From positions 9,047,340 through 9,111,339 of the forward strand of contig NC_091142.1 in the NCBI RefSeq assembly GCF_041381155.1: a stretch of DNA of 64,000 nt, read 5' to 3'. The translations under genes were made by a program, and so were the position numbers. Shown piece by piece: positions 1-52,300 of the stretch (the first letter of the stretch is position 1; each line of letters begins with the position of its first letter). This DNA is from Argopecten irradians. Its lineage: Eukaryota; Mollusca; Bivalvia; Pectinida; Pectinidae. The notes below the pieces were generated by a model. It ran no database searches. It was given only the letters and a program-made list of their open reading frames with translations, and was not told where the DNA came from.

Positions 1-3000
1 GTTTGACAACTTTAGAATGTTACCCCTGAGTCGAGATTCTCCGGTCTCATCTGAAAGGGGATTAAAGATGCTATTGATCTTTACCTTATAAAGACCTATC
101 CAATCCCAGGAAGATGAGGACAGTTCAGGGTTAGTCCGGTATGTGTATCGGATGTCCATGTCGTGTTTGAGTCTACAGGACGAGGGAACCTGGAACGTCA
201 CCACAGGTGGGTTGGGGGGATGAGGAAACACCTGGAAATATACAAACTTCACTGATAAAACACAGTCACACTAAACATCTCTGTAATTTAACAAGGTGCA
301 ACGAAGCATTGCAATATCCCACCCCCACCCACCCCAACCGCAGTCTGATATATACAAAACAAGAGGCCCAGAGGGCCTGTATTACTCACCTGGTTAGCTC
401 AGTAAATATCACAAATGTTTGACGAAACCTAAGGCTTATGACTTTAATCTCCCATCACATAAGTACTGACAGGGAGGCTAGCATTCAAACATGAGTGATA
501 TCCATTGCTTACATGATAGTTCCAGAGACAAATCATTTATACTAAACATTAGCCTCATCATTTGTACAATCTTTACTTCACAAATTTAGTTAAATTCCGA
601 ACAACGATTATAAACATGTCACAGTACATACAGTATAAGTTCACCTTGGATCTTCGTACCATGTGAGCTGAAGTTTTATGATCTAAGTTGAAGATTTGTT
701 TTTGTTCTAGGTATAGCCCAGAAACAAAAGGAAACTGATATTTGATGTTTTGACACTGGTAGAATTTTAAAAGTTCAAAATGTGTTTTCAAGAGAAAGGT
801 TATGGCAGCCATTTTGGATTCTGATTTGAACTAAAAATCAAGACTTGGTCAGGACCATGCCATGATCATTTTAGGCAAGCTTCAGCTCAATCATGTTGGT
901 AGAACTTAAGAAGATGGTGAACATGGCGCATGGCAGATTCTGCACAGTGGACGATGACAGCGTGTTCATTATTTTTGTATTGCATACTCTCATATTTTCA
1001 AGTTTGTGTTGTGTACCTACCGGGAATTGGAATTCTGTTACAACAGGTTTGTGGTCACTGACAGTGAATGATGGCAGAGATTTGTAGTACAGTTGTTTAA
1101 CACTGAGGTCAAGGTTCTGAAAAGAGTCTTCGTGGACCATCCATAAGACACGATCACACCAGGCCGGAACTCTCTGCTTCTCACTAAACATAAATCATAA
1201 ACAAATAGGATATGATCTCTAACTAAACATAAATCATAAATAAATAGGACATGATCTCTCACTAAACATAAATCATAAATAAATAGGACATGATCTCTCA
1301 CTAAACATAAATCATAAATAAATAGGACATGATCTCTCACTAAACATAAATCATAAATAGATAAATAGGACATGATCTCTCACTAAACATAAATCATAAA
1401 TAGATAAATAGGACATGATCTCTCACTAAACATAAATCATAAATAAATAGGACATGATCTCTCACTAAACATAAATCATAAATAAATAGGACATGATCTC
1501 TCACTAAACATAAATCATAAATAAATAGGACATGATCTCTCTCTAAACATAAATCATAAATAAATAGGACATGATCTCTCACTAAACATAAATCATAAAT
1601 AAATAGGACATGATCTCTCACTAAACATAAATCATAAATAAATAGGACATGATCTCTCACTAAACATAAATCATAAATAGATAAATAGGACATGATCTCT
1701 CACTAAACATAAATCATAAATAGATAAATAGGACATGATCTCTCACTAAACATAAATCATAAATAGATAAATAGGACATGATCTCTCACTAAACATAAAT
1801 CATAAATAGATAAATAGGACATGATCTCTAACTAAACATAAATCATAAATAAATAGGACATGATCTCTCACTAAACATAAATAAATGTAAGTAGTTGAAT
1901 ATGTATGTACAGGGTCTATATACTTACATACATTTTGTAGCTAACGTGTGTATTTTGTACATGTACCTTATATATACACCTCTACATGTTGAACTTAAAA
2001 TTATCTCTCAAAATATTTTAGTTGAGTATAAGCTTATTGTTGGGTTTTATTCAAATTTAAAATACAAAATATCATTTAAACAATCTTTTGTCAATGCAGC
2101 ATCTTGCATTATGTAATACAGTAAAACATGTTTATAACGAACGCTCTTAAAAACAAATTCATGGTTATAACTTAGCGATTTCCAGTCATGATGTGTGCAC
2201 TCTGTTTTTGGTATGTTGTGCGATCACACACCTGTACTGACCTTGTGTCATATATATCTGTGTCTGGGTCAAACTTGTAGGTTGGTGCGAACGTGATTGG
2301 TCCCTCTTCAAAGTCTGTAAATATCATCCCTTTATCCTTACATTTCAGTAGCTGAAACATCATTGTTATTCTTTAGTTTTGGTTGAAAAAAACTAAAGAT
2401 CATCTCACTCTGACTGTACACTAAAAAGTAAACGATTATCTCCCCTCAACTGTAAACATGGGGTAAGATTATCTCCCTTCAACTGCAAAGCTAAAGTAAA
2501 AGAGATTATCGCCGTTTAACTGTACAGTTGAGCAAGGATTTATAAGTGAGAAGGATTCGTGTCTGTCTCTTTACACTACTAAACACCACGCGAGACGCTT
2601 ATGAACCGGGAATAAAAACCGTTTTTCTCTGAATCTCAACAAATACTTGTCTTATTGAATCAAACGAAACGCCAATGTAAAGTAAATTAAATTTCACAAC
2701 GTTTATAACTTGCTTTAAAGACGGAAGATTTAGAAGAAATGTCTTAAACTATCGTTAAAAAAATACGACCGCTCATGAAATGGCAGCACGCTTCAGAAAG
2801 TAAGACGGTAACCCTCGCACCCCATGCTACATCAAAGGCTGCGGCGGCGGATATCAAAGGAAATCAGTCGTCGCCCAACGTCACGGTCAGTGCACAAACA
2901 CAAAAGCGCCTGCGTTGTCTTTGCCCAAAACTCAATGTGACTTATCCTTCTCATATACGTCCTTGAGTTGAGGTAAAAGAGATTATCTCCCTCTAACTGT

Positions 3001-6000
3001 AAAGCTGACGTAAAAGATATTATCTCCCTTTAACTGTACAGTTGAGATAAAGAGATATCTCCCTTTACTGTACAGCTGAGGTAAAAGAGATATCTCCCTT
3101 TACTGTAAAGCTGAGGTAAAAGAGATATCTCCCTTTACTGTAAAGCTGAGGTAAAAGAGATATCTCCCTTAACTGTAAAGCTGAGGTAAAAGAGATTATC
3201 TCCCTTTAACTGTAAAACTGAGGTAAAAGATATTTGCTCCCTTCAACTGGACAGTTGAGGTAAAAGAGATTATCTCCCTTTAACTGCAGAGTTGAGGTAA
3301 AAGAGATTAGCTCCCTTTAACTGTAGAGTTGATGTAAAAGATATATCTCTCCTTAATTAACTGTACAGCTGAAGTAAACAAGATTATCTCTCTCCAATAT
3401 ATAGTTCTCCTTACCTGGTCCTTCTTTAGTAAGGCATTGTAGTTCTTTGCTGCTATTTCCTTTTCAACCTGTGATCTAGTCAAGCCATCCAGACGGAAAT
3501 TCAGATCTCCCATCCAAAACACATAGCTGAAGAAAAAAATATTTTGTCAATTTATTATCATTCTTATACTAATTTAGGGTTATCTCCCTTTAGTGGATCC
3601 TACAATGGAATATGTGTTGTAGTGATGGATGATGATAAATAGATTCATCGAAATTACATAAATTACTTAAAGATAAGTTCTTGCATGCTTGCTCTGAATT
3701 GTCATTCGCTGAAGACATATTTCATCTTCTTTAATTTTCCTGAGTTGAATTAGCTTTGAATTAATATCACACTGATCAAGTAAGATTTATTTTTAGATAT
3801 CTTTTTCTCGGAATAATTTCAAACTTTGAAAACACTGAATAGTTAGTTAGCTTTTACTGAAAGTGCAAGAAAAAATACACAGAATCAAATATGGAAAGTC
3901 TAATAAATGAAAAGTATTATAGGGGCATGTACACTCACAGGATCCTATCAAGTCTGATAAATGTGAACTTACTCATGATCTAGTATATTATCTACGTCCT
4001 TGTCCCGAAATTTCTGTGTGTCCAGGATGGTGAAGAAGTCCTGTGAAAATAGCATTAAACAGACATAATATAGTACCTTGTTATCTTTTCATGGTAATAA
4101 TGATTAGTTTCTAGACAGTGAAAATAATGTAATTTGATTTCATTTGACAAGAGTTCTTGATCTGACATAACACAATAGAAGCCTTATCAATCAACATATT
4201 CAAAGGTTTTGGTAGTTTTATACTCCACCAAAAATTGATATTACAAAGATATTATGCAAATTTTCATCAAATACAAGAAAATATGAAATAAAGTTGCAAC
4301 AAAAACAACTTAAAATTATTTTCATTGTTTGACATACTTCGATTCTCTCCATAGCGTTGTCCATGTGAGCTGCCAGGTGAGCGTTGACCATAATCAGATT
4401 GACTCCATTGACATCAAATCGGATACTCACACCACCTTTGTTGCCCTGAACAACAAGAGGCCCAATAGGCCTTAATGATCATTTGGCTATTTGTACAATT
4501 ATACAGTAGTGGGGAAAATCTGGATAAAATACGAAAGAGCAACTCTTCTGAAAATGTTCACCATTTCTTCGACTAACAATTAAAAACACTGTATACAAAG
4601 AAATATTAAGTAGAAGGTTTTAGCTTCTGCTATGCTTAACCCCTGTGATTGTACTTAAAAGTACAGGTCATTTATTTCAGTATAATTATGTATAAGAAAA
4701 CAAACTTACCCACCAGCCTCCCATCCCGGCTTTTGACCTCTCTGACTCTATGTGCTCGTAACTCATAAGGTGTTCTCTTTTCACAAAGGCCAGTGATAAC
4801 AACCCCTGCATTCTAACAATTTTTATCTGCAAACATGACACAGATTGTAAATACATTGCATAAAAAGTTCTTTGAAATATTCCGTCAAGAAGAATGGCTA
4901 CCAGCTTTTTTTATAGCTTAGTAATATGACACTATTTGAAAATGTTTATTGTGAATGCCCTTAATATTTAACTAGCCCTAACCATTGGAGAATTCCATAT
5001 TTTTCTATAACAGTACTGTACACTCTGTCACACATTCTGTCTTTGCATATTACAGAGTTAGCTCCCTTGCGAGTAGGTATCCATTGTTACGTCATTATTT
5101 TGTATTTTGATGTTGTTTTCTCCGAAAAGTATGATGTTACGCTCGTAAACACATGACATCACAATCAATACCTACAAGCAAGGGCAGATAACTCTGTAAT
5201 ATGCACCAATATCTGTTTCTTGTAAAGTATTTTATGATACAGGGTATTTATAAACATGATGGTTTCTTTACCTCTATTCTTTACTCAGTATTGTAATTTG
5301 TACAATTTTTTTTTAAATGTACAAATTTTAGAAAGATAAATGGGTACATACCGCTATATATACATTAATTTTTTTGTCTTTTTGAACAATCGGGAAATGG
5401 AATATGGACTTTGAAATCAGGAATTTCCCGACAGAATCAGGAAAATTGGCAAATATGCATTATATTCTTTTGATATTCAAGGTGACACACTCTTCAGAGC
5501 TAATATCTGATGTTACATCAATTGTTTCTAAGAATAATATCTTTGTGAAATTGTTGCCAATACATTATAGCCAAAAACTTTCCCCATAACAGATGAGTCT
5601 GCATACTGTGATCCAAATATCTTTCTCGGCTACTAAATTTTGCGATTTCTGTTTAAAATGGATTTTCACAAGAGATTAAGTTTCATGGATTCGAAATTGA
5701 ATGGAAATTATGCAAAAATTGTGGAAATTAATTTCACAGAGATCATCTTTCGTGAATTTATGTTTATCATGAAATTTATGAAAATAAATCAGATGCCAAA
5801 GAAATTTAATCTACAGTAATGGAGACACTTAAGACATGATGTCTGTATAATTAAACAAAGAGAGATATGATACCCGAACAAATCCTGCCACGCCGAGACA
5901 TCTTGTTAACGCCTTGGTCCATTTGTTTTCTTCTGCATCAGGGTCCCCAGTACTAACTTCCTGTAGACTGAAAAGAAAGTTGAAAGTTGTTTACTAAACA

Positions 6001-7974
6001 ATTAACAATTGTTCTTACCTCTAGTTAATTACAGATTAATTATAAATCTTTTTGGAAATCTTTGCAAATTGGAAAATTCATTGCTAACTTTGTGCAGTAA
6101 TTTAACGAAAGGCTAGTTTAGATTTAATTCTAATAAGCGCTCTCTTATTTTTTCAATTTTTATTTTCTAAGCTCCCTGGGTGCTTGTAGGGACGAATATG
6201 GTATATCTAGTTATAATGACAGCACTAGCTGAACTGGAAAAGTGTTAAATATTTTACAACTATGGAAATTATTTTTGCAAGGATAATATTTTCGTGATAT
6301 CGAGGGACATAATTAATATAATTGAGACCATTAAATTTGTATAAAAAGAAAGATAAACCCATATAAAATATATAAGCATGGTTGGATTGGACTGGGTCGA
6401 TCATCGGTGACCAAGCCTCAATTTCTAGAAACCAACTTCAGTCAGGGCTGAGTGGTGTACTTACCCTATACCATAGATGTCAGGCAGTATGTTATAAGGT
6501 TCACCCAGACCTAGGAGTTCTGTCAGACCATCAGTGGACAGTGGTTTACTTACCCTATACCATAGATGTCAGGCAGTATGTTATAAGGTTTACCTTGACC
6601 TAGGAATTCTGTCAGACCATCAGTGGTTTACTTACCCTATACCATAGATGTCAGACAGCATGTTATAAGGTTTACCCAGACCTAGGAGTTCTGTCAGACC
6701 ATCAGTGGACAGTGGTTTACTTACCCTATACCATAGATGTCAGGCAGTATGTTATAAGGTTTACCCAGACATAGAAGTTCAGTCAGACCACCAGGGGGGA
6801 CAGTGGTGTACTTACCCTATACCATAAATGTCAGGCAGTATGTTATAAGGTTTACCCAGACATAGAAGTTCAGTCAGACCATCAGTGGACAGTGGTTTAC
6901 TTACCCTATACCATAGATGTCAGGCAGTATGTTATAAGGTTTACCCAGACCTAGAAGTTCAGTCAGATCATCAGTCATCAGTGGTGTACTTACCCTAGAC
7001 CATAGATGTCAGACAGCATGTTATAAGGTTTACCCAGACCTAGGAGTTCAGTCAGACCATCAGTGGTGTACTTACCCTATACCATGTCAGACAGCATGTT
7101 ATAAGGTTTACCCAGACCGAGGAGTTCAGTCAGACCATCAGTGGACAGTGGTTTACTTACCCTATACCATAGATGTCAGACAGCATGTTATAAGGTTTAC
7201 CCAGACCTAGGAGTTCAGTCAGACCATCAGGGGGGTCAGAGGTGTACTTACCCTATACCATAGATGTCAGGTAGCATGTTATAAGGTTTACCCAGACCTA
7301 GGAGTTCAGTCAGACCATCAGGGGGGTCAGAGGTGTACTTACCCTATACCATAGACGTCAAACAGTATGTTATAAGGTTTACCCAGACCTAGGAGTTCAG
7401 TCAGACCATCAGTGGACAGTGGTGTACTTACCCTATACCATACATGTCAGACAGCATTTTATAAGGTTTACCCAGACCTAGGAGTTCTGTCAGACCATCA
7501 GTGGACAGTGGTTTACTTACCCTATGCCATAGATGTCTGGCAGCATGTTATAAGGTTTACCAAGACCTAGGAGTTCAGTCAGACCATCAGGGGGGTCAGT
7601 GGTGCCAACATTCCATGTACACAAATACAATCTGCAAAGTTTAAAAAGCAAAAACTTAATGATACACTGTATTTCAATTTGATTTAATGTCAGATAATTT
7701 TATTTCAGTTAAAAAGTGTATAAGTCCTGAAACAAAACTCTAATTTTATTTTATTATCTTGAAATGGTCATTATGTTGACTGTAAAGTAAGTTGAAACTT
7801 TTGTAACTTAAGAAAAGTACTAATTCGTCTGCTCTTGATTTTGATAAGAAAAAAAATACCATTAGTCAGAGGTGTAGCATCTTAAATACAAAATAAACTT
7901 CTGAAACATAACCGATACTACCTTAATATCTTTGGTTTTGGCATCACTTCACATTTCTTCGTAGAAACTGCCAT
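1..7974 (-). CDS. INPP5K: INPP5K/SKIP-type inositol polyphosphate 5-phosphatase (3' end cut by window)
   Basis: Predicted to remove the 5-phosphate from phosphoinositides such as PI(4,5)P2 and PI(3,4,5)P3. Ten coding exons on the minus strand: 7974-7922, 7631-7521, 5967-5874, 4826-4710, 4445-4338, 4040-3973, 3526-3415, 2351-2242, 1183-1021 and 231-85. They splice with consistent phase to 361 codons. Visible motifs in order: TWNVG (residues 23-27), GLQEV (55-59), GNKGGV (126-131), NAHLAAH (146-152), FWMGDLNFR (187-195), PAWCDR (264-269) and SDHKPV (300-305), a complete 5-phosphatase core. A SKICH domain then begins, with WDWIGLYK at 354-361. The start ATG at 7974 leaves only about 20 residues before the catalytic core, as in INPP5K rather than the long-N-terminus INPP5J. 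After codon 361 the frame stays open to position 1, so either a donor at 84 or read-through is possible. The rest of SKICH lies outside the window. Exons 2 and 9 adjoin arrays that copy their splice sites. Confidence 0.93.
1184..1885 (-). repeat. 38-43 bp minisatellite carrying the INPP5K exon 9 acceptor
   Basis: About 18 units of consensus 'ATAGGACATGATCTCTCAC' followed by TAAACATAAATCATAAAT (plus strand). A 4-bp longer variant (extra ATAG) is interspersed. Read on the minus strand, each unit holds TTATGATTTATGTTTAG followed by TGAGA, the same acceptor and first exon bases used at 1183 (TTTAG|TGAGAAG). The array therefore starts exactly at the splice site. Confidence 0.9.
2396..3395. repeat. 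About 37-bp minisatellite in INPP5K intron 7, split by a MITE
   Basis: Degenerate tandem units built on GAGATTATCTCCCTTTAACT followed by GTAAAGCTGAGGTAAAA, with many substitutions and small deletions. Present on both sides of a foldback insertion at 2533-2966. It lies between exons 7 and 8 and does not appear to copy either splice site. Confidence 0.85.
2533..2966. mobile_element. Foldback MITE inserted in the intron 7 minisatellite
   Basis: Imperfect terminal inverted repeats of about 30 bp: the left end begins AAGGATTTATAAGTGAGAAG and the right end reads back as AAGGACGTATATGAGAAGGA. GTTGAG flanks both sides (2527-2532 and 2967-2972), but the array unit also contains GTTGAG, so a target duplication is not certain. 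The interior is more GC-rich and holds a 63-codon open frame with no recognisable domain. Confidence 0.5.
5036..5212. mobile_element. MITE family B copy 1
   Basis: Inverted termini TTTGCATATTACAGAGTTA ... AACTCTGTAATATGCA flank a core with 'GTAGGTATCCATTG' and its inverted partner. About 175 bp, inside INPP5K intron 3. Related copies are at 13712, 14570, 37552 and (degraded) 25070 and 63280. Confidence 0.7.
6382..6424 (+). repeat. Fragment of tRNA-derived SINE 5' flank
   Basis: GGATTGGACTGGGTCGATCA followed by TCGGTGACC repeats, in opposite orientation, the sequence just outside the tRNA-like head at 8933-9042. No further SINE sequence follows. Confidence 0.4.
6440..7520 (-). repeat. 88-bp tandem array carrying INPP5K exon 2 and its donor site
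   Basis: About 12 units, period 82-92 bp, extend into the intron immediately after exon 2; exon 2 itself (7631-7521) is the thirteenth, outermost unit. On the minus strand each unit reads CTGGGTAAACCTTATAACAT, then the codons for LPDIYGI, then GG|GTAAGTA, i.e. the last 70-odd exon bases plus the donor. Plus-strand anchors (CTTACCCTATACCAT) occur near 6461, 6548, 6632, 6720, 6810, 6900, 6987, 7070, 7157, 7246, 7338, 7427 and 7515. The copies lack the exon's TWNVG half and its acceptor. Confidence 0.93.
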
Positions 7975-9230: not shown

Positions 9231-12200
9231 ATGGCTCCCCGTAAGAAGGTTACGAAGACCCCAACTCGTATGATCACCAAGGACATTGGTGGTGATAAAA
9301 ATGGTGGAAAAAGAACGATCAGAATCAGCCGCATGGTAAACTTTTCCCCAAGATTCTAGTAGAAACCGTATTAAACAAACAGAGGTTCCTTTAAAACTGT
9401 TTTATAGTCTATTAAAACTTGGACAAATTAAAAGGAATCCACTTTTAATGTATAATTAGTTTATAAGTTATAATTACTGTATGCATAAAGAATTTCATTA
9501 ATAGGGGAAAAAAAGTCTACAAAGGATTTCTGAACATATTTCTGTCACATAACCATCATGTTTTGTCTTCATGTTTACTAGAGTCTAGCAGGTATTACGG
9601 TACTATTACCAGGTACTTAGCATTTGTTTGACTGGATTTGATTTGACAAAGCAGACAATTTAAGTTTCTTTTTTACATTGGCACAGCATTTGTTTGACTG
9701 GATTTGATTTGACAAAGCAGACCATTTAAGTTTCTTTTTTACATTGGCACATGATGTTATAAGTTAATATTTTGATTTTTATAGTCTTAATATTTTGATT
9801 TTTATAGTCCCGGTACTACCCTACCGAGGATAGGCCAAGAAAGTTAAGATCTACCAAGACTGCCTTCTCCTCTCACAAGCACACGGTCAGATCTTCTATC
9901 ACCCCAGGAACAGTCCTGATCATTGTGGCTGGACGTCACAAGGGAAAGGTAAAAAGAGTGGAAAACAAACAGACACATTTAATAATGTTTGTATTTGCAG
10001 AAAGTTGTATACATCCGAAACCTCACTATCTTCTTGGTTAATCATGTTAAATATGTATCTGTTTAAAAATGGCACATTTCATTTGACTAGCGATTTAAAA
10101 ATTAATTCCCAAAAATTTGGCACTCCTCATTTTAATCAATCATCATCAGAGGCTTTAAAAAAAATCCCTTTCGTCTATGTTCTTACGCCATCTTATTACT
10201 GCTATTTCTCAGAAAGAACTGAAGGGATTTGTCTTAAATTTTATTTGTAGGCTCCCAACTTGGGATTTCAATATTTTATTACCATTTTTTAATTCTAAAG
10301 GGAGTTTTTATAAATTTCACGCATCAATTTTTGCTAGAGCTAGTGACAGTTTTGCAATTTTGTGTTTGTTATCGGCCATAACTAGCCAAAAACCTCCCAA
10401 TATGTATCTCAACTTTATTTGCTTAAAAACAAAAATGGGACAAACAGGTTCTTGTTAATTGAATGCATACTATTATTTAGTGATCATTTATTATGTTTTA
10501 TCTTCTTATTTCAGAGGGTGGTATTTCTTAAACAACTGAACTCTGGTCTTCTTTTAGTAACAGGTAAGTTCAGCTGTTGCCAGGTACTGACCGCTGGTCG
10601 GTAGCTTTCCTCCAGGTACTCTTGACTTTCCTCCACCAACTAACCTGACACATCCTTAGAAGATACTGGCTGTTAATAGGATGTTAATAAACCCCAAAAG
10701 TATAGATAATATCAACAGTCTGCAAACTTTAAGCAATAGTCCGATACCCATGACTAGCAATTTTACACCTGGACTAGTGATGATTGTCCGATTTTACTAG
10801 AAGCTCAACACCCAGTTAAAATTGGTAGCTACTATATTTACAAGAGCGGTGGTCAATTGCATTTTTCAACACATTTTTAGTGCATTCTCTATGCAATTAT
10901 TTCATCAGTTGCATCATTTTGTGATAATTTGCATCCAGACTAATTTGGGTCAAAAATCTATTGTACATTTATTGTTAGCACGATGGAGCGTAGCTAGCTC
11001 CATCGTAGCTTATAGCATACCCCCTAGTTTTGAAAATCACCTTGTGAACAGGATATCTCAAGTTATACACCATTAACAGCAATGAAATTTGGCACAGACA
11101 TGTAGTTATAGATAAGGACGGAACTGATAAAACTTGGCGACAAACAGACATAAACTGTATTTTTGAGGAATTAAAATATATTTTATTCCTTCTTTGTCTA
11201 TAGTAATATTTAAATGAGAAACACAATGCATTATGGGAAATTATATGGCCGACAGTACCACTTCATACAAAAGAAATATAGTTTTAGAAAAGATTAAGGC
11301 AATTAAGAAATATTCATTATTTTTCTATTCTTAAATATGTTACTCAAAGTGTCATGACATCATAATTACCTGTGTTGGATAATCTATATTCCCTGGACAG
11401 TGTCACAAGTCAGGTGCCCTAGTTTCATCTAGATGCTGTTTATAGGCCTATATGTGTGTGTAAATGTGTTACATATACCATTTACTGTTAAAGGGAAAAA
11501 CAATGGTTGAGAGTTAATTAATGTATTTTGTTATCAAGTCCTTGGGAAAGGCTCGACTGTAGCTGCCAATGTCAATTTGTTGACCTGTAGTACACATTCC
11601 ATTGTGCCGAGACTCAGCCAATACAACTTGTGCATTGTTATCTTAATTGTGAAATTTATATTGTGTTGAAGAAAATGAGATAAAAGATAAGTAATAAATT
11701 TCAACCTACTGAAGCAAATTCAGTTTACCTCTTATAACCAGGACAGCCAAACATCTTTGATTTTTTTTGGTCACCTGTAATGAATTAAGCCCTCCTCCAG
11801 CAGGTATCTTTTAAAAGTCTAGTCAACTTAACACTTTGATAACATAGTTGTACATGTGTGATATCGATAAGCAATCATACAAGAAAAAATTTCCCCAATA
11901 ACAATATACTGATAAATTTGAATAAAAAGCTTTGTTAAATTTTGAATTTTATTAAATTTTCTAATATTAAAGTTAAGTTGATGCTATTTGAATTGGTCCC
12001 AACAATATTCTTACTATTAAAGAAGATGCTGCTTCTGCATACGCTCACACTAAAATCCTGCTCAGAAAAAAAACTTGTCTGCACAAATCAATATTTTTAT
12101 AAAACTGTTGATCTATATATAACTTAACATTTGATGAATGACATCTGTCTTGAAAGAATTTTATGATTGTTTTAATACCAACATTGATAACAATTAAATA

Positions 12201-14321: not shown

Positions 14322-14327
14322 AATAAA
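14322..14327 (+). terminator. RPL6: RPL6 polyadenylation signal AATAAA
   Basis: Canonical hexamer about 200 bp after the RPL6 stop codon, with GT-rich sequence just downstream. Confidence 0.65.
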
Positions 14328-20720: not shown

Positions 20721-20727
20721 AGGAAAT

Positions 20728-26818: not shown

Positions 26819-33853
<7,035 letters not shown>

Positions 33854-37300: not shown

Positions 37301-40300
37301 TTTTGGGCTCCCAAATGGCCCATTTCAACACAATTTCACCTGTGTAAAAAGACCTATGTTAAAAGACCCTATTTTTTCTTTGTCCTTTGGGTGATTGTTG
37401 TAATCTGACATAGACAGGGTTTATCATATGTCTACTGTTGATGGTGAGCTTTAGTTTCTGACAGAGTAAGCGGACACATATATTTTAAAACTACTTAATA
37501 CTGAGAATTGAAGAAGATGGATAATTGATTACCACTACAAAATGTCTTCCGAATTTGCATATTACAGAGTTATCTGCACTTGCGGGTAGGTATTGATAGT
37601 GACGTCATGTGTTTACGACATGAATAATGACATGAATTGCGCTCACAAAATAATGATTTAACAATCGATACCTACCTGCAAGGGAGCTAACTCTGTAATA
37701 TGCAAAGACAGAATATTGTAGCTTGTCGCTACTTTGCATCTTTGTCAGTATAATTCAGTGAGATGGCACTATAAAATTGTTTACAATTAGGTGTCATAAA
37801 CTTCAGTAAAGTACTCTACCCTCCCACAATGCATGATTAATTGCAATTCAACTATATGGAAATAAAGTGTATACTGGCCTGGGATGCAGTAGTCATGATT
37901 GTGTGTATATTCTACTGTGCGTCCAGATTTATGAATGTCTGGAGCTGCTCAGGAATACTTCACAATGGTGTTGTTTTATTTACGTGGAAACAATGTGTTT
38001 CATGAGATGCAAGCAATTAATTTTTTCCCAAATCACGACTACTGTTCCTTCACAACTACTGGTATGGTCCCAGTATATATGTGACAGATCTAGGAACTGT
38101 ATCTATATAACCAAGACATCAAAAATTGACAATTTTCATTTGACTGAATTTATATTTATAGATATTGGCTGCATTGAGGAACAAGATGGTATTGGGCGAA
38201 CAGCACTGATATACGCAGTACACTTTCAAGAGTTAGAAATTTTAAAGTGCCTTTTGGAGAGTGGTGCTGAAGTGAATGCTACAGCACATGGTAAGTAAAT
38301 GTTGGTTATATGTTACAACAGTGATAGTAACCCCTGGAGTATCAAGAATGGTTCAGGGGTGGATTCAACAGTGATAGTAACCCTCCAGGTATAAAGGATG
38401 GTCCATGGGTGTATATAATGACAGTGATAGTAACCCCTGAAATATCGAGAATGGTCCAGGAGTGTATTTAATGACAGTGATAGTAACCTCTGAGTATTGA
38501 GGATGGTCCAAGAGTGGATATAATGAAAGTGAAAGTATCCCCTGGTGTATTAAGGATGGTCCAGGGGTGAATATATATATTGACAGTGAAAGTAACCCCC
38601 GAGTAATGAGTATGGTCAAGGAGTAGATATATATCGACAGTGATAGTAACCCCTGAGTATTGAGGATGGTCCAGGGATGGATATATATCGACAGTGATAG
38701 TAACCCCCGAGTATTGAGGATGGTCCAGGGGTGGATATATATCGACAGTGATAGTAACCCCCGAGTATTGAGGATAGTCCAGGGGTGGATATATATCAAC
38801 AGTGATAGTAACCCCCGGTATATCAAGGATGGTCCAGGGGTGTATATTATTACAGTGATAGTAATTAACTACAGAGTAGGGGGATGCTTCTATCTCGGTG
38901 TGCCAAATATAAACATAACTGAGACAGTATGGGTGATAAGTGACCTTGACTCAAGTTTTCTTATTTTTACCTCTGACCAAACAAATCAATTTGCAAGACT
39001 CTACATATCTTTGTCTATGAAACATAATATTGGGTCAGAATGTCGTTTAGTTCAGAGGGTGCATGAAAAGGAGGTCAATGTGACATATTTTTTGACTCCA
39101 TATAAAATTTGCAGGGAACAATGTGCAGCTGACAGTTCCCAAAATTAAATTACTCAAAAACATTATTCAGACAGTATGTGTATTTTTTTTCATCCATCAG
39201 TAGACATCTGTTTTTTTTTTCTTCAGATGGATCAACTGCACTACACCAAGCTTGTCACGATGCAAACCATAAAGCTCTTAGTATGTTATTACAATATGGC
39301 GGCGACTTTACCATGCAGGACACACAGGGGCGTGCCCCAATTCACTGGGCGGTTACTACTAAAAGTACTGAATGTCTCAAGGTAATTAATAGCAGAGTTG
39401 TCAATCTGATTCTTAGTCTTATAACTATTGTTTATCAAACAGAATGGTAGTAAGGAATTTTAATTTTATCAGATAGCAATTTCGAAACCATATTAAAACA
39501 GTTTTATATATTATCATTTACTCACATTAAAAAAGTTGAATCTTTAAATTCCTTCAGAAAAGAAACAATGATCTTGTATTCAGAACATTACTTGGCATTA
39601 CAACCAGGTAAGCGATACAGGCCCTCTGGGCCTCTTGTTATAATTTCTACTGATATTATATTCCATGAAAATCCTCTTTAATTGAGATAATTGATGGACT
39701 TTGATAGACCTCTTACTATGTAAGTTACTGAGTCTATCATGGTCTATCAGATTATACTGTACACCATTTCTGTGCAGAGATGTCAATGACATGGTCAGCA
39801 TTTTTTAGCAGTGACCTTAGAAAATCACATTTATTATGATATACAAAGCCCTTTGGGTGACAGGGTCATGTTTTTTACAAAAATTGATTGTTATTTTACA
39901 GTATCTGATTGGTCACCATGCCGATGTGAATTCACGAGACAAAGATGGGTTATCTCCCTGCATGTGGGCGTGTCGACTGGACCATATCAAACACTTTGAA
40001 CTTCTCAGCTCATCTGATAACTTCCATGTGGATGATGCTGACGGGATAGAGAGAGACAACAATGGTCGCACATGGATGCACTGGTCAATACGACGTTCAG
40101 AACCTCTGGAATGTTTACAGGTGTGTTATACCATTAGATAAGCTGTTTACATGTTAAGTGGCAGTACCTAGTGGTATGCTAGATAATTTCCCGCAGCCGC
40201 ACATGTACAATGTCAGAGCAAACATCGTAGCTTACACGATATAAAAGGAATATGCATGTGTGCTACCCGGCGATTTGATTGACAGCTAGCGATCCGTCAA

Positions 40301-43300
40301 TACTAGAACAATCTCTCAAATATTTCTTTTTTGTATTTACAGACTCTGTTAACTCAGGAGACGGCAGCAATCAAAGATGAAGAAGGCAAAACTGTGTTGC
40401 TTCTGGCTGCAGAAATGGGTACGGCAATCCGTCTACATTACATTTTGTTTTCAATATTTCCAGTTTACGTCCATACAGCAAGCATCGAAAATCTTTTAAC
40501 CAGTGATAGGATGAATGAGTATTTTTTTGAATGACAAACACTCTAACCACTTAGCCTTAATGACCTAAATAGTGAAGAGGTCTAATGGTGGTGAAGGTGT
40601 CCAACAAATTAGTAAAAAAAAATAGATTTATTTTACTCTGATACTCTTTTCTTAAATAATTTTATTAGCATTATCTCCCTTTGATTTAATGCTAAATTTG
40701 TATCGTGCACAACATATGTTTCGATTGTAAAATAGGGTTCACACTTTTTCTCCAGCATGAGAATTTTGATAAGCTGGCAAGTATGATATTCCTGTGTATA
40801 GTAATCAACTAAGATCAAGAACATATGTCTATATGTTAGGACAAAGTGCTATATAGTTTTTAGCTCACCTGGCCCGAAGGGCCGGTGAGCTTATGTCATG
40901 GGCGGCGTCCGTCGTCCGTCGTCCGTCGTCCGTCGTCCGTCAACATTTCCTTTCGTCAACATTTCCTTTAAATCGCTACTAGTCATAGAGTTCTGCATGG
41001 ATTGTAACCAAATTTGGTCACAAACATCCTTAGGGAGAGGGGAACAGAACTTGTATGAATTTTGGCTCTGACCCCCCCGGGGCAGGAGGGGCGGGGCCCA
41101 ATAGGGGACATAGAGGTAAATCCTATAAAACGCTACTTGTCCTAGAGTTCTGCATGGATTGTAACCAAATTTGGCCACAAACATCCTTGGGGGAAGGGGA
41201 ACAGAACTTGTATAAATTTTGGCTCTGACCCCCCGGGGGCAGGAGGGGCGGGGCCCAATAGGGGAAATAGAGGTAAATCCTATAAATCGCTACTTGTCCT
41301 AGAGTTCTGCATGGATTGTAACCAAATTTGGCCACAAACATCCTTGGGGGAAGGGGGAAAGAACTTGTATAAATTTTGGCTCTGACCCCCCCCGGGGGCA
41401 GGATGGGCGGGGCCCAATAGGGGAAATAGAGGTAAATCCTATAAATCGCTACTTGTCCTAGAGTTCTGCATGGATTGTAACCAAATTTGGCCACAAATAT
41501 CCTTGGGGGAAGGGGAACAGAACTTGTATAAATTTTGGCTCTGACCCCCCGGGGCAGGAGGAGCGGGGCCCAATAGGGAAATAAAGAGGTAAATATTCAA
41601 ATTCCTTCAGGAAAGAAACAATGAACCTGTATTCAGAACATAATTTGACATTACAAACCAGGTGAGCGATACAGGCCCTCTGGGCCTCTTGTTTGGATTG
41701 TAAAGATGATGTGGAACAGCTGTGGTCAAAATTTAAAGAGATACTTGAAAACTCAATCAGGGACACAGTTCCAGTACAACAAATAAAACCATCGCGCAAA
41801 TTAAGTAACCACAAAAGTTGTCTAGATAAAAAGACATTGTCTAAAATCAAAAATAAGGCCAGATTATGGAACAGATATATGTCCACTCGGGATCAAGAAG
41901 TCTACGCAGAATATTGTAAAGTAAGGAATCAAGTAAGGTCACTCACAAGGAAGGCGGTAAAATTACGTGAGAAACAAATAGCACAACAAGTAAAGGACAA
42001 TCCTAAAAAGTTCTGGAGACACGCGAAATCTAAGACAACAACTAAATCCAATATTTCAAATCTGTACAAAAATAATAACAAAGAGGATATCACTACAACA
42101 GATGATGAAAAAGCAAATGTACTAGCTAATTTTTTCCAGACAGTGTTTACCCAAGATAAAGATAAATCACTACCTGATATTGAAAAGATTGATGTGGAAC
42201 CGATCACTCAATTAAATATTTCACCAGAAGTCGTGCAGAAGAAGCTAATGAAGTTGAAAATTTCAAAATCATCTGGACCGGATATGATCCATCCTAGAGT
42301 TCTTAAAGAGACACGCGATATTATATGCCATCCTCTAACATTAATATTTCAAACATCAATCGACACTGGGAAATTACCTGCAGACTGGAAATGCGCTAAT
42401 ATAACGGCAATATTTAAGAAAGGAGATCGGAAGGAGGCTTCAAACTACAGACCAGTAAGCCAGTGTTGTTTGTAAATTATTAGAATCAATAATAAGGGAT
42501 AAAATAATGAGTCACATGAAAAGAAATAAGCTATTTAGTAACGCTCAGTTTGGTTTTATAGACAGTAGATCCACAGTTCTTCAACTTATCAATGTCATGG
42601 ATAAATGGACAGATATTTTGGATAAAGGAGCATGCGTGGATATTATATACTGTGACTTTATGAAGGCTTTCGACAAAGTACCTCATGGCCGACTAGTACA
42701 TAAACTCGCAAAATATGGCATCTGTGGTCAGTTTTCAATCTGGATCCAAGCCTTTCTGTTTGGAAGAAAACAAAGAGTTGTAGTGAATGGCAAAACGTCG
42801 GAGTGGAATCCAGTTTTAAGCGGGATACCACAAGGATCTGTGTTGGGACCACTTCTCTTTGTTCTCTATATAAATGATATGCCCGATGTAACAAGTACCG
42901 GGACAGACACCTATCTGTATGCGGATGATACGAAAGCTTTTAGATCAATAAAAAATGAAGAGGATTGCAAAATATTACAACATGATATATATTCATTAAG
43001 CCAATGGTCAGATATTTGGAAACTCTGCTTCCACCCAGACAAATGTAAAATGATGCGATTGGGATATTCAAATACAACTAAATATGGATACAGACTGAAG
43101 GAAAATGCCCAATTTTTAAAATTTGTTGACTCGGAGAAGGATATTGGTGTCACCATAGATGATAAACTTACCTTTGACAAACATATATGTGAAAAGGTCA
43201 ACAAAGCAAATTCAATCATGGGAGTGTTGCGGAGGACAATGGAATACATGGACCAGAACAGTTTTAAACTTTTATACACGGCATTAGTTAGGCCTCATAT

Positions 43301-46300
43301 TGAATATGCTGTTCAAGCCTGGTGTCCGTATTTGGAAAAGCATGTAACAACAATAGAAAACGTTCAACGTCGAGCAACAAAGCAAGTGCCAGGTCTCTCA
43401 ACTTTGCCATATACAGAACGTTTGCGTAAACTCCAACTTCCAACGTTAGCATACAGGCGGTCACGTGGGGATATGATTGAAATGTACAAAATACTTTCTG
43501 GAAAATACGATAAAGAAGTCGCAGATTTGTTTTCAATCAACCAGGGATCAAGTACCCGCGGACATGATTTGAAAGTGTACAAAGAGCATTCAAGGCTGTG
43601 CGTGAGAAAACACTCGTTTACCCAGAGAGTCGTGAATACTTGGAACAGTCTCCCATCAAATGTTGTTCAGTCTAGGACAGTTAAGCAATTTGAATATGAA
43701 CTCGATTCACATTGGAAAAATCAGCCACTAAAGTATTTATACACTGAAAAAAATAAATCCGTGAATTTCTAAGAGCTGACTATTATAGGATTATAAAAAA
43801 TCCTGTACATGTTAACATGTATGTTGTCAGAATAAATCTATGTATCTATGTATATATGTATGTATTAGTTTATTAGAGAACAAAGGCAATGTATACATAA
43901 TGTAGTATGACAAATTTCAAAATTTTGTTCCTCAGCCCTTGAAACACGGACCGTTTTTATTAATGTTTGTTTTCTCAGACTCAAAGTTTGACGTTCATAT
44001 CATAACCTCTTGGACTTGAAGGAATTTTCAATTTTATTTAACTATAAATTTGACAGGTTCACTGCTAGCGTGTAAGATCATCGTAGAAATAGGGGGAACA
44101 GATTGTATATATGACCGAGATACTCAAGAGAGGACGGCACTCCATCTGGCTTCAGTGGGCGGTCATGGGGACATCGTCAATTATTTACTGGATCATGGAG
44201 GTAAGTCAGCATAAGTCAGCATAAGTCAGCAGAAGTTAGCATAAGTCAGCATAAGTTAAAATGCCAGTCTCTTCAGTCATTACATAGATCTGACCTTTGA
44301 ATCAAACTGATATTATTGACCAATCAAATAATACCCTGTAGGTCAGCTCACTCAGTCGGAACTCGTGGATGTCCCACGAACGAGCATTCTCCAACATGTA
44401 CATACAGTCGAAACTCGTTATCTCAAAATCGCTTGAGTCGAAATTCCGGTTGAGTCAAATTAATTTTTAAGTCCCGTTTTTTGTCCTTCTTTGTGTATGT
44501 ATTTTAAGATCGAATGACTCGAATTTCGATGACTCGAAACTCTGGTTGTGTCAAAGTCAATTCCTGGTCCCTAGAACGGATATTCAACGAAAAAAAAAGT
44601 CGCTATCTCGAATTTAATTTTAGTCAAAATTTTAAATAAAAAAAATATAACATTGATACAAACAATTGAAATTCACCTGTGGTTTGTCGTAACACGTGAT
44701 TGGTTTACCTGCACATATCGCGATCGGTATTTGCAGATTCAGGCCTATGGGAACATTCTACAACAATGACTGCTAATTAATAATTGTTTAATAATCCTCT
44801 CAAGTCTGGCTTCCTTATTAGTGTCACTTGACAATTGTGACTTACCTGTACATAAACACGACGTGTGTTTACACAATCGCATTCAGCATGGCTCGATCAT
44901 GACCGGAAGCGTGTTTGTTTACTAATCATTAGAAACGAAAGTGTTTTCTAAGGTTTGTATGGAATGTTGATAGTGCAAAATAATTTAACAAACCCACAAT
45001 GTTAAATGTTTAACTAGTCGTTACAGATGTACTAGTATCTTAGCCTACAGTAGTCATACAATATATTTCTTCGTTGGTATAGAAATCTACTTTCGTTTCA
45101 TTTACCGTAATTATATTAACCGGTAGAAATGAAGAGTGTAGTCTGCTCACGGTAGGTAAAAACTATTGTTTATTTTACTATTTCGAAAAACCATTAAATT
45201 CTGAAATAAGAAAGATGTTTGTTTTTATTTGTTCATGTACTACATTCTGTATAAGTTTGATGTATGAACCATTGAAGTCAGTATACGTATAACCACCGGG
45301 AAATCAGTGTGCATGCCTTATAATCGTAATTCAATTTTTTTATTTACAAATGTATTTAAAAAAAATCCCAAAACATCTGAAAACATACAACTAAAAAGAT
45401 TTAATACAAACCTTTTAAGTTGGAAAATCACGATAATATGCTGATCACGATAATAGGCATGTACCCGGCTGTCATAAGATATAAGGACCGTTGAAAACCA
45501 CGTTCTGACCAAACCTAATGGCATTACGTTTGAGTCGAATTCCGGATGAGTCGAACTATTTTCGTTGGTCCGTTGAATTTCGAGATAACGAGTTTCGACT
45601 GTATATATCACTTTATGTAAATTACTTTCGTGGAAAATGAAAATTTTCCTGTACTTATGAGGTCAAATAAACTGGATGAGATGTTTGTCTTATATTTAAT
45701 TAATTATGACGTAAACAATAAAAATGTGATTTTTTGCCCTTTGACATTTGACCTCTGAAATTCTGAATAGCATGCAATATGCAGCTGACCATAAAGTATC
45801 GTCATACAAAATATTTTGCTAATCACTGAGTGGCCGCGACCCAAAATGATACCCCTCCTTCATGAATTCATTCTTTGTAATATTTTATTTCAAAACTTAA
45901 AGATGCTCCACCGCCGACAGAGCTTAAACGATGCTCATCATTTGAACAATAATTGGTGTTTAATCACTGTTCTAACGAAGGAGATTCTTTTGTACCTATA
46001 TACATGATAGAAGGTATAGCAAAACATTCGTAGACTGAGTTTTCGGTCAACATGTGTTATGTTGAAATCTCGAACTGTGCCTTTGGCCTCAGGCAACAGT
46101 TACGTCCTTTAGTTTAACACATGTTGACTGAAAACTCAGTCAACAAATGTATAGTGTACAATGTTTGGTTACAGACAAAGTTTAATGTGCAATGTTTGGT
46201 TACAGGCAAAGTTTAATGTACAATGTTTGGTTACAGACAAAGTCTAATGTACAATGTTTGGTTACAGCTGACCTGACAGCGGTAGACAAAGTCTAATGTA

Positions 46301-49300
46301 CAATGTTTGGTTACAGCCGACCTGACAGCGGTAGACAAAGTTTAATGTACAATGTTTGGTTACAGCAGATCTTATAGCGATAGACAAAGGTTAATTGTAC
46401 AATGTTTGGTTACAGACAAAGTTTAATGTACAATGTTTGGTTACAGCTGGTCTTATAGCGATAGACAAAGGTTAATTGTACAATGTTTGGTTACAGACAA
46501 AGTTTAATGTACAATGTTTGTTAACAGCCGATCTGACAGCGGTAGACAAAGTTAAATGTGCAATGTTTGTTAACAGCCGATCTGACAGCGGTAGACAAGT
46601 TCAATGCCAATGCTTGGGACTATGCTAAGAATCGACAGCTTCACTATGTACAGCTGATCATCATGTCACATCAGCGACAGCGACTCCAGAGTAACCCAAC
46701 CTCCCCGATCCCTAACGGACTCGGCCTCTCTCTCATCTCCTCCAATGGATTCATGGGCACGCTCGGCTCCATCAACGGTGACCATAACGGCACCGAATAC
46801 GAACACATGATCGTAAGTCAAATTAATCATAAAACTTTGTACATTTTATTTCGCTAGGAACATTGATAACTATTGATTTATCATATCAGAAAATATTGCA
46901 TTCAAAATTAGATTATACATACTTCAGGATGTAGTGGAAAATTTTAAAGATATATCTATGAATGTATTGTTATTGGGAGGAAACTAGGCTTTAATCATCA
47001 TGAAAAAATTGGTTTGAATCAATATTAATATTTCTTGCAAGAAGGATTTCAGGCAAGGCATAATTATTTTATATTTTAAAATCTTTTTAAAATTCATAAC
47101 TCTTGTCTCTATTGAAAGAGGCATAAGTGTTGTATATTTAATAATCTGGAATAAGTTATAATAAGCAGTTATAGGTCCTGATTTGTAAAGATTTGTGTCT
47201 GACTTGTCTAACTTATATTTGATATACTTCCTTATTTTCTGATGCAGAATACACGAGGTAGTTTTGAAAATCAGAATATGCCTATAACGCCGCCCCACCC
47301 ACCTAAGCGACCTCGTACCGAGAGGCGGAGTATTCGTACACCCTTGAGGCGGTCGACCAGTCTAGTAAGTGCTCCAGAGAGAGAGCCTTCATTTGTACAA
47401 CAACCAGACGATCGCTACACATCTAGTGCCGGGGGTGATCTGAACCGACGGAAGGAACGGCTTGATGTAAGTTTGTTTTAACATGGGCATATTTGTTGTT
47501 TATAGGAAAATCAAACTGCCGGAAAATTGCCAGTTTAAAATAATAATGTTAAGTTTGATGCATTATGATCAGGTTTCATTATATTTAGTGCCATGATTAT
47601 TTTAAGAACAGGCATTTGTCTAAAGAACAACAAGATATTAACAAAAAATAATAATTTGTTGTCACGAAAATGAATACATATAATTCCTAGCTGTTTTAAC
47701 TGTGAAAATATGCAATTAGTAAAGTCACAACCTATTGTGGTGAATTAATTTGTAACATATCCTGTTACTATTTATAGACATATTTAATGGTGTCCTGGTC
47801 TGTTACTATTTATAGATACATTTTTTGGTGAGTTTGTACCTTGTCCTGGCCGTGGCCTGTTACTATTTATAGATATTATATTTACAGGTGACGGTTAACA
47901 CAAGGAGTACCCCTGACATCCTCCCTGTTCACAATAACAATAACAGAGATGACGTTCCCATGGTTACAGATGATAACCACGGTAAGTTCTACATGTCTAT
48001 CGATTTTATTTTCATCAATTACTCAAATTAGCAGAGAAATATTGCATTGCAAAAAGAGTAAAACAAAGCATATTACAAGTTAGAAGATTAAAGTAAAGTG
48101 CTCTGTCATCCTTGCATGGTGGGCACAGGCCTTGAAAAGTCCTTGATTTTTTTGTTCAAATTTCTGTACGAACCATGCCTTGGTCATTTTGTTGAGTTCT
48201 GGTTTTACATTTCACAGGTGAGGATGATATTGATGATGTAAGTGCCGGAGGAATGGATGTATCTGACATTGAAGACGGAGATGAAGAAGCTCCACCTCAA
48301 ACATCCAGGCTTCCTCACCGACAAGACAGTGGCACCTCCCGGGACCATATCCAACCTCGACCTCCTCCACGCCAGCATCCGCAGCAACGTCCAAATAAAC
48401 CTTTATATGCTCAACCACTTGTAAGTACAACCTACTTTTGACATTAAAGTATCTTCCACATCAAATTATAAAATGTGTCTTTTCCTGTTTGATAAAAGAT
48501 TTTATTTTGAAAAATGAGACACTGACAGAAATAAAAAAGAAAACTAAGACATCTTTTATTTTGATATGATCAAAGATATCATTTGTCATTACAACCCAGG
48601 AACCTCAGTATAATCGAAGGACGAATCAGGGATTCCCGCAGGACGGGAATATTAGCCGCGATTACCGTGATCCTCAGGAGAACCGAGACTACAGAGAAGC
48701 ACAACGACAGCAACAACAGCCTCCGTCTCCACCTAAGTACCCTCTGACTAGTAATACCAGAGTTATCTCCCCTCACTTCAATAACCAGCCAGTGAACCCG
48801 TCTGAGAGTTTCCCGCCCAGTCGTCCTCGCCCGGCACCTCGTCAGCCACAACCTCTACGTAACACGCCGCCAAGACCTCCACCTCCACGACCCACACCCT
48901 CGCCAGCTCGACCAAGTTCTGGAGTTCGTGATCAGCTACAGAGTCCACCTGCTACCGACCAAATGAGGCCAACCCCTCCTCCCACACAAGATCCAAACCG
49001 ACCCAATTCTGGTTCAAGACCGCCAGGTAAGATTTATACTTTGTATTATGTAACTCTGATTACAAAAAACAAGGGATTTTGGCATACACCATTGATTTTC
49101 TATGTCAGTAAAATGAAAAGGGTATTTTTTCCTTGCTTTTCCCTTCTTTCTCTCTTCCTTTAAAGCATTTAATACACACATGGTAAAAAAATCAAGTTGC
49201 TTCGTTCAGGGATTCTAAATAGCAAAAGGTCAATGATTTTTCATAGTTCCATAGCAGTTTTATGCAATACTTTGGGTATATTTCTTTGTTTGGACATCTA

Positions 49301-52300
49301 CACAAGCTGATACAGATATATGCTTTGATACTTCCTATTCTCAGTGAGAGCATTTTCAAATTCAGCAAAAGTGTACATCTTTTGATATGGGACTAATTTC
49401 TTTAACATACCTTCAGATCCTACCACTTTCTGTGCCATTTTTGGTTACAGCCAAAAGTTTGAAAAATGAGCACCCCCCCCCCTCTTTGATACAAACACCA
49501 GAGCAAAAACATTTACCAGTTTGTAAAATACTAAATTTTTCAATCTTTGATGGAACTTTGTTCAGGTGTGGTTGAAGGACGTCGAATACCTCCTCCAATG
49601 TTGACTCCTCTGGAAAATGCACCTGTTCCTCCTTCCATATCTAAGATGGAAAAGAAAGAGAAGAAAAAGAAAAGAAAGAAGAGAGAACGGGAAAGGGAGA
49701 AAGAAAAAGAGCGAGAAACTGACCTGAAATCTCCTCCTATGGACCTTGAGCCTCCCAGAGGCTACGCTGCTCCCTTACATCCCCCTCCATCAGCAACAGT
49801 TCGACAGCAGCGAGCCCAATCTGGGATACCGGCCCCTCGCTTCTCTAAACAACCCCCTCAACGACATGAGTCCAGGTAGGTTTTGTCCATGCTCGATGAG
49901 CGATACAGGCCCTCTGGTTCTCTTGTTTAACATTTAATGAAAAAATGAACATCACATTTAGGGTATTGACTATTGAATATAGTATTTTCCACGTTCATAT
50001 GACCATATGAGATAGCTTGTTAGAATTGTCGAAAGCCAGAGTGAATATGGTTATTATTATACATATAATACGGTTGAATAATAGGTATATGATATATGAT
50101 ATGTTCAAGATAAGTAGATGTTATAATAAATTTGTCCAGATATGAAGATGATATGTGATATGTTCCAGATATGTAGATATGTAATATGTTCCAGATATGT
50201 AGATATGTAATATGTTCCAGATATGAAGATGTTATGTGATATGTCCCAGATATGTAGATGATATGTGATATGTTCCAGATATGTAGATGATTTGTGATAT
50301 GTTCCAGATGTGTAGATGATTTGTGATATGTTCCAGATATGTAGATGATTTGTGATATGTTCCAGATATGTAGATGATTTGTGATATGTTCCAGATATGT
50401 AGATGATTCATGATATTTCCAGATATGAAGATGATTTGTGATATGTTCCAGATATGTAGATGATTTGTGATATGTTCCAGATATGTATATGATTTATGAT
50501 ATGTTCCAGATATGTAGATGATATTGATATGTTCCAGATATGTATATGATTTATGATATGTTCCAGATATGTAGATGATTTGTGATATGTTCCAGATATG
50601 TAGATGATATTGATATGTTCCAGATATGTATATGATTTATGATATGTTCCAGATATGTAGATGATTTGTGATATGTTCCAGATATGTAGATGATTTGTGA
50701 TATGTTCCAGATATGTAGATGATTTGTGATATGTCCCAGAGATGTAGATGATTTGTGATATGTTCCAGATATGCAGATGATTTGTGATATGTTCCAGATA
50801 TGTAGATGATTCATGATATTTCCAGATATGAAGATGTTATGTGATATGTTCCAGATATGAAGATGTTATGTGATATGTTCCAGATATGTAGATGATATGT
50901 GATATGTTCCAGATATGTAGATGATATGTCATATGTTCCAGATATGTATATGATTTGTGATATGTTCCAGATATGTAGATGATTTATGATATGTTCCAGA
51001 TATGTATATGATTTATGATATGTTCCAGATATGTAGATGATATGTGATATGTTCCAGATATGTATATGATTTATGATATGTTCCAGATATGTAGATGATA
51101 TGTGATATGTTCCAGATATGTAGATGATATGTGATATGTTCCAGATATGTAGATGATTTGTGATATGTTCCAGATATGTAGATGATTTGTGATATGTTCC
51201 AGATATGTAGATGATTTGTGATATGTCCCAGAGATGTAGATGATTCATGATATTTCCGGATATGAAGATGTTATGTGATATGTTCCAGATATGAAGATGT
51301 TATGTGATATGTTCCAGATATGTTGATGATATGTGATATGTTCCAGATATGTAGATGATATGTCATATGTTCCAGATATGTATATGATTTGTGATATGTT
51401 CCAGATATGTAGATGATTTATGATATGTTCCAGATATGTAGATGATTTATGATATGTTCCAGATATGTAGATGATATGTGATATGTTCCAGATAGTATAT
51501 GATTTATGATATGTTCCAGATATGTAGATGATATGTGACATGTTCCAGATATGTAGATGATATGTGATATGTTCCAGATATGTAGATGATATGTGATATG
51601 TTCCAGATATGTAGATGATATGTGATATGTTCCAGATATGTAGATGATATATGATATGTTCCAGATATGTAGATGATTTATGATATGTTCCAGATATGTA
51701 GATGATTTATGATATGTTCTAGATATGTAGATGAAAACATGGAAGAGGATCATAGTAAAGAGGAAGAAAGCAGTACCAGCAAAGACATGCCTGTTGTCAA
51801 CGGTTACGCTGTACCGATGAGGGAAGGCCCGACCCGATCAGCGAGGCCAGGTCAGAGCCGCCTTCAGCCAATGGAGAGCGAGGAGGAGTATGAGGACGAT
51901 CCAGACCACGAAGATGAGCCTAGCGACATCAGGGACCATAGCGACCATCATGAGCCTGGCAACCATGGTGACCAGGGTAACCATGCGGATCATCGACTCT
52001 ATAGAGATGACAGAGACCAGAGAGAAGATTACAGGGGTGATAATGGTGACCAACAGGAAGCTATAGATGAAGAGGAGGATGTTGGACCTCTGATTCCTCC
52101 TCCACAGGGATTCAGGGGAGGTAACTCCCGTGCGAGCCGGCCACTTGTCTCTCAGTCAATCCCTCAGGTAAGGAAATTAATGTATTATACGTAATCTTTA
52201 GGGTGAATTCTTTAAGGTTATTTTTTTTTTTTTTACATTTCAATCTTCTTTTCATGTTCTACTATATAAGTGCAATATTGCTGAAAGTTGCAGCCTGAAA

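Follow-up and report, generated by a model that had tools for sequence, protein, structure and literature searches.

We sought to explain why tandem repeats in unrelated genes of one mollusc should so often carry a splice site within their repeat unit. The question is raised by a stretch of 64,000 nucleotides from the bay scallop Argopecten irradians (contig NC_091142.1, positions 9,047,340 to 9,111,339, of the 845.8-Mb assembly GCF_041381155.1), which we call the window. An initial annotation, made from the letters alone, had placed six tandem arrays at exon-intron junctions of INPP5K, RPL6 and an ankyrin-repeat gene. All six were present at those places, as determined with Tandem Repeats Finder (TRF) and with junctions fixed by four rebuilt gene models. 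We read the junction-spanning arrays as 'mirages', the name given to minisatellites that lie across exon-intron boundaries in the amphioxus genes Adh3, TnC and PGBD5 and the globins BflGb6 and BflGb9, as described in the relevant passages of two reports (PMC3087553, PMC3902484). With a probability of about 0.7 by our estimate, they arose by position-blind tandem duplication, with selection acting against arrays in the interior of exons and tolerating those that cross outward.

Arrays across the ends of exons

TRF returned 41 rows in the window, which were merged by hand into 26 arrays, and 18 of these lie in the 28 complete introns of the four genes that we rebuilt: INPP5K (7 introns), RPL6 (4), the catalytic subunit of PP1 (4) and the ankyrin-repeat gene (13). 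Five of the 18 overlap a coding exon, all of them across a splice junction. Two are found in INPP5K, on the reverse strand. The donor-type array at exon 2 (6451-7604, in the intron 7520-5968) has 13 copies with units of 82-91 bases and overlaps the exon by 84 bases in the longest TRF row, or by 70 in the 89-base row. The acceptor-type array at exon 9 (1179-1882) has units of 39 or 43 bases with the acceptor TTTATGTTTAG/TGAGAAG (here and below a slash marks the junction), the last intron base being 1184, and takes in five exon bases. When this array was cut at the acceptor, all pieces measured 39 or 43 bases and none was double, so the AG was lost in no copy. In RPL6, a single duplication of a 23-base unit (9764-9809, forward strand) takes in two exon bases beyond the acceptor, which follows position 9807. 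The remaining two are acceptor-type arrays on the forward strand of the ankyrin-repeat gene. One (46143-46606) has 49- and 31-base units and includes 30 bases of the exon that starts at 46577, and the other (50081-51734) has about 57 copies of 29 bases and includes 12 bases of the exon that starts at 51723. The claim that every unit includes a splice site and exon bases therefore held for five of the six arrays and failed for the sixth, a 10-base array in the ankyrin-repeat gene (44202-44256, forward strand) that begins at donor position +2 of the exon ending at 44200 and repeats neither the GT nor any exon bases. Copy numbers, put at 2 to about 60 by the initial annotation, were measured as about 2 to 57. 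Arrays at 38318 (27 bases from a donor), 2969 (24 bases), 9619 and 57132 were dropped as candidates because they had no exon overlap, and no junction-spanning array was found in the four introns of the PP1 gene.

The spliced reading frames are open in all rebuilt gene models. The INPP5K-like model (1021-7631, reverse strand) has eight coding exons, with the gene extending past both ends of the model, and matched the annotated A. irradians INPP5K-like protein P0121 with 100% identity and 100% query coverage, a match that is only partly independent because P0121 was annotated on the same assembly. The model of the ankyrin-repeat gene (36756-59446, forward strand, 14 exons; espin-like by its Mizuhopecten name) matched P0001, a protein of 1,071 residues, at 100% (rounded) over 100%, with a single Q/H difference seen by eye. 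Since P0001 comes from a contig of 4,059 bases whereas the gene extends over more than 22 kb, that contig is probably spliced RNA. Five coding exons were modelled for RPL6 (9231-14119, forward strand) and five exons for PP1 (27126-30741, reverse strand), the latter model being incomplete.

Slices of the five spanning arrays had no match at E up to 0.001 in the window beyond 2.5 kb around them, nor in 24 other fetched loci. Given the lack of cross-matches, the arrays look like separate local events, and a single mobile element behind all of them is rejected, in agreement with the initial annotation, which had described the units as unrelated and not as one transposon. A further array, absent from the original six, lies across the stop codon of the ankyrin-repeat gene (59411-59530, forward strand). 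The first of its three 39-base copies is coding (RSSSSS, then TAA) and the other two lie in the 3' untranslated region, with a protein C-terminus that agrees with P0001. This array obeys the same rule as the junction-spanning ones, here at a boundary unrelated to splicing.

Recurrence was assessed in a genome sample of 20 stretches of 10 kb each (200 kb), whose positions on 16 contigs were fixed round numbers. TRF found 79 arrays covering 37,516 unique bases of the 200,000 (18.8%), and a published report, in the pertinent passage, puts the TRF content of the A. i. irradians genome at 15.10% (PMC7090048). The bay scallop genome is rich in minisatellites, with about 15-19% of it in tandem arrays. 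Sample genes were picked by a chimeric protein query, which returned 15 proteins, and 40-kb flanks were then added. In this way 33 introns were placed: 13 in moonraker (residues 1-760 of 1034), 15 in ARMC8 (101-664 of 664), four in CEP78 (1-200 of 825) and one in RFX6 (55-207 of 882). For moonraker and ARMC8, Pecten maximus proteins served to place the junctions automatically, and a small number may be misplaced (relative alignment scores as low as 0.79). We note a possible bias in the sample, in that the TRF list, including an ARMC8 array, was known before the query fragments and flanks were chosen, although the listing of candidate exons by coding score preceded the TRF list. Three loci (L010, L013 and L017) were excluded because their genes had no protein match; we provisionally take these genes to be spectrin-repeat, PRPF38-like and DENND4-like.

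Three junction-spanning arrays were found in the 33 sample introns. The larger of two donor arrays in ARMC8 has 11 copies of 83 bases with 50 exon bases, and GT is kept in 11 of 11 donors. The second has 2.5 copies of 55 bases with 29 exon bases, and GT is lost in both of its decoys, as we call the copies of a splice site other than the real one. The third is an acceptor array in moonraker, with two 75-base copies and an exon overlap of 28 bases. Overall, this gave eight spanning arrays in 61 introns, three donor-type (INPP5K exon 2 and the two in ARMC8) and five acceptor-type. Another ARMC8 array, at 7392-7692 of the joined loci L027 and L023, resembles the window array at 44202-44256: its first copy begins at donor position +2, and the repeats are without GT.

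Decoy splice sites and isoform X3

Exon 2 of INPP5K (7631-7521) ends GG/GTAAGT, and the spliced frame runs on from it. The unit of its array is chiefly exon sequence followed by GTAAGTA, a motif kept in 13 of 13 copies, and since no unit of double length occurs, no copy was overlooked. By eye, CACCACT is common to exon 2 and to the intron past the last array copy, which makes it a plausible slippage site for this array; among the founding breakpoints, only that of INPP5K exon 2 showed clear microhomology. Each of the exon peptides encoded in the units is also present in a second scallop: RYVDEN and DLSAIDKF of the ankyrin-repeat gene in Mizuhopecten, and TELLG and MLPDIYGIG of INPP5K in Ylistrum. 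Because these residues are common to another scallop, we take the exon to be the original from which the array was copied. Similarity to the exon immediately downstream extends to the 'intronic' 31-base part of the ankyrin-gene array at 46143-46606 (P 0.0002 in comparison with shuffled sequences).

The exon parts of the INPP5K and ARMC8 decoys drift neutrally. Among 11 of the 12 INPP5K decoys (the copy with a deletion was excluded), the 18 distinct variants comprised 5 silent and 13 replacing changes, whereas the full set of single changes that could occur there holds 53 and 139. The 10 ARMC8 decoys, when changes were summed copy by copy, showed 7 silent and 18 replacing ones, out of a possible 35 and 102. 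When set against the decoy consensus, the INPP5K exon itself differs at four sites, three of them silent and one an M/I difference at which the exon retains M. Together with the neutral decoys, these differences uphold the initial suggestion that selection retains one intact terminal copy.

Judged by consensus, real splice sites are sometimes weaker than their decoys. At the 57-copy ankyrin-gene array the real acceptor reads TTCTAG, with TTCCAG at 50 of 56 sites, and at the large ARMC8 array the real donor is GAG/GTAAAT, with CAG/GTAAGT in three of the ten decoys. The terminal copy is probably picked by exon definition and not by the strength of the site.

Isoform X3 of the A. irradians INPP5K-like protein (P0123) has the N-terminus MLSDIYGIGLQEV, which opens with MLSDIYGIG, whereas the peptide of exon 2 proper is MLPDIYGIG. 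When the entire window was searched in all six frames, MLSDIYGIG occurred in only two places, both of them copies of the INPP5K array in intron 2, on the reverse strand. In copy 4 (7161-7186, ATG at 7186) it is followed by the decoy donor GTAAGT, as in X3, and copy 10 (6636-6661, ATG at 6661) likewise has an intact donor GTAAGT. Since MLSDIYGIG is encoded in the window only by intronic array copies, the first coding exon of the annotated X3 model is one that the array supplies. A decoy donor of the INPP5K array seems to be used in this annotated isoform, the transcript model being itself a prediction, and this suggests that the choice of the exon-nearest splice site is not perfect.

Placement at junctions and competing explanations

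Under the reading that we favour, short tandem duplications would arise regardless of splice junctions, and the arrays would then lengthen by slippage or unequal exchange. Duplications within a coding exon would be removed by selection, and a duplication running from the exon across a junction or stop codon would be tolerated. Since the splice-site copy closest to the exon adjoins intact coding sequence and would stay in use, further copies would sit in RNA that is removed or untranslated, and could drift freely. The coverage of the window is consistent with such a process. Within introns, 8,214 of 32,258 bases lie in arrays, and within coding sequence only 231 of 5,549. Of these 231, the five spanning arrays account for 133, the stop-codon array for 36 and one low-complexity stretch rich in lysine, glutamate and arginine for 62. 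It is the interiors of coding exons that arrays avoid.

We compared the placement of arrays with null models that were set after the data were known, and we note that the window, which supplies 18 of the 32 arrays, was chosen for the pattern. If whole arrays are placed evenly, with exon overlap allowed up to one unit, then 1.9 of the 18 intron arrays of the window should span a junction, and five do (P 0.023). For the sample alone, three of 14 arrays span a junction against 2.07 expected (P 0.34), which is no clear excess. Of the 122 junctions themselves, 8 fell within an array, a lower frequency than for intron bases in general (15.8%) or for bases lying 10-110 from a junction (10.3%).

Several results nevertheless weigh against a process that is wholly blind to position. 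In the combined set of 61 introns, 8 of 32 arrays span a junction where 3.9 are expected, an excess of about twofold (P 0.024), and founding-unit nulls expect fewer, namely 2.6 when confined to the array's own intron (P 0.002) or 2.3 when any intron is allowed (P 0.001). Array ends within 50 bases of a junction numbered 13 against 7.3 expected (P 0.007), split about evenly between the exon side (7) and the intron side (6). Variation at the splice dinucleotides is lower than in the rest of the unit in four arrays (rotation P 0.034), a weak test since copies are related and two acceptor arrays were cut at the acceptor, though no double-length piece was found. The excess at junctions and the lower variation of splice dinucleotides mean that junctions could matter beyond what a blind model provides. 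Our own reading is of a process blind to position, on which junctions exert a modest pull at most.

The explanation that survives best beside it is that duplication is favoured at exon-intron junctions, either through breaks linked to transcription or splicing, or through an exon copy that is shielded from decay or deletion and re-seeds the array. The excesses of spanning arrays and of nearby array ends point this way, as do the two further arrays that begin one base into the intron (ankyrin 44202 and ARMC8 7392). The sample taken by itself and the low frequency of junctions within arrays point the other way, and we consider this explanation unlikely. The initial claim of a mechanism favoured at junctions was not borne out, the excess of array ends resting partly on the chosen window; as to its companion, that chance would rarely place arrays in this manner, spanning arrays exceed even placement in the chosen window and in the combined set, with no clear excess in the sample.

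Much less probable is that the arrays are functional and kept by selection, their extra splice sites recruiting U1 or U2AF or giving alternative exons. The GTAAGTA intact in every INPP5K copy, the GT kept in all donors of the large ARMC8 array and the use of an array copy by isoform X3 would fit such a role. The decoy exon parts drift neutrally, however, GT is gone from both decoys of the second ARMC8 array, and no sequence is common to the units. As the sequence reads, moreover, TAA stands immediately past the INPP5K donor on read-through, and the reading frame is not kept by units of 23, 29 and 89 bases.

That the arrays are older than the exon edges and gave rise to them, as in intron gain by tandem duplication, we regard as very improbable. 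A new intron arose in potato through tandem duplication across a boundary, according to the passages that treat it (PMC4974935), and the same is proposed for the amphioxus globins in the corresponding part of that report (PMC3087553). The exon residues of the scallop units occur also in another scallop, so the exons are probably older than the arrays. Both processes involve duplication across an intron-exon boundary; there the outcome is a new intron, whereas in the scallop it is only a longer one. An artefact of wrong junctions or mis-assembled arrays can be almost entirely discounted, because protein identity runs across the INPP5K and ankyrin-gene junctions (the INPP5K record being only partly independent) and the copies in most arrays have diverged, unlike duplicated reads, although long near-identical arrays are hard to assemble and copy numbers may be wrong.

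Neighbouring repeats and known mirages

Several other repeats were observed in and around these genes. A 157-base satellite lies in an ankyrin-gene intron (40964-41594), near CEP78 (959-4033 of locus L020, with matches up to 95% identical) and at the ARMC8 locus (L027 and L023); occurring in three of the 24 fetched loci, it is a dispersed family, unlike the mirage units. Two adjoining reverse-transcriptase-like open reading frames in an ankyrin-gene intron (42459-43772 and 41666-42475) are by eye of the non-long-terminal-repeat type and apparently split by a change of frame. In the last intron of that gene, a 76-79-base array (53955-54204) has CCCCACAGGTAACT in two of three units by eye, an acceptor running straight into a donor, as at recursive splice points. 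A 34-base unit array with about 53 copies (57132-58970) carries CTTACCACAG, acceptor-like on the forward strand and donor-like on the reverse, and ends 317 bases before the last acceptor. Copies of a 37-base array at about 2410-2540 and at 2969-3390 flank an unrelated stretch, by eye as if an insertion had split the array. Similar elements in an RPL6 intron (about 13720-13880) and an ankyrin-gene intron (37556-37700) have inverted ends, CAGAGTTATCTGC and its reverse, and by eye resemble miniature inverted-repeat transposable elements. Finally, a repeated palindromic block at 21819-23669 holds four near-perfect inverted-repeat pairs of 268-363 bases (99-100%).

So far as the amphioxus accounts describe them, mirages there and in the scallop have in common units across both 5' and 3' boundaries, many intact GT or AG copies, normal splicing and occurrence in unrelated genes. 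In the scallop the unit spans the boundary in five window arrays and three sample arrays, though not at 44202-44256, and both 5' and 3' boundaries are represented. The authentic boundary is spliced in INPP5K and the ankyrin-repeat gene by protein identity, with X3 as the exception, and presumably, by homology, in RPL6, ARMC8 and moonraker. The copies carry splice signals that normally go unused, apart from the two GT-less decoys of the second ARMC8 array. Somatic instability has reportedly been seen in the amphioxus Adh3 mirage. As far as those accounts extend, the scallop differs in being a bivalve, in having up to about 57 copies, in its one stop-codon array and in spanning arrays in 8 of 61 introns; regular splicing is unperturbed in amphioxus, whereas one annotated scallop isoform begins in an array copy. 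The BflGb6 mirage has 6 and 3 copies in two haplotypes, according to the passages on that gene (PMC3087553, PMC3902484).

Related structures are known elsewhere. Internal tandem repeats of human segmental duplications, in the part of the report that bears on them, are likewise minisatellites at exon-intron boundaries that alter gene structure, but they lengthen exons or create introns, whereas the scallop coding sequence is unchanged (PMC2812944). In the polyubiquitin gene UBC each tandem repeat also bears a splice signal, but there, as the relevant passages have it, the site is dual-specific, donor and acceptor at once at the borders of coding repeats, whereas scallop decoys are intronic and of one kind (PMC10809524). 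An abalone intron minisatellite shows length polymorphism, with no splice site mentioned in the passages that concern it (PMC6905558), and Caenorhabditis elegans minisatellites near alternative exons are presented, in the corresponding passages, as regulatory motifs and not as boundary-spanning units (PMC4039745). Among the matches listed in the open-access literature, a scope outside which most subscription papers fall, there was no report of mirages in molluscs. The scallop arrays extend the known mirages to wider taxa, to more copies than in the amphioxus globins, to a stop-codon counterpart and to candidate use of a decoy.

These arrays provide natural tests of splice-site choice, with dozens of near-identical rival sites per intron, some stronger by consensus, among which the exon-nearest is used. 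They also supply intermediates for models of intron gain and of the birth of isoforms. It is a tentative thought that scallop mirages, in roughly one intron in eight, hold in their decoys a standing and fast-evolving store of splice sites that feeds new isoforms and possibly introns, with X3 as an example caught in the act. A structure of a few lancelet genes recurs in a mollusc, and it may be a general product of animal genomes that are rich in minisatellites.

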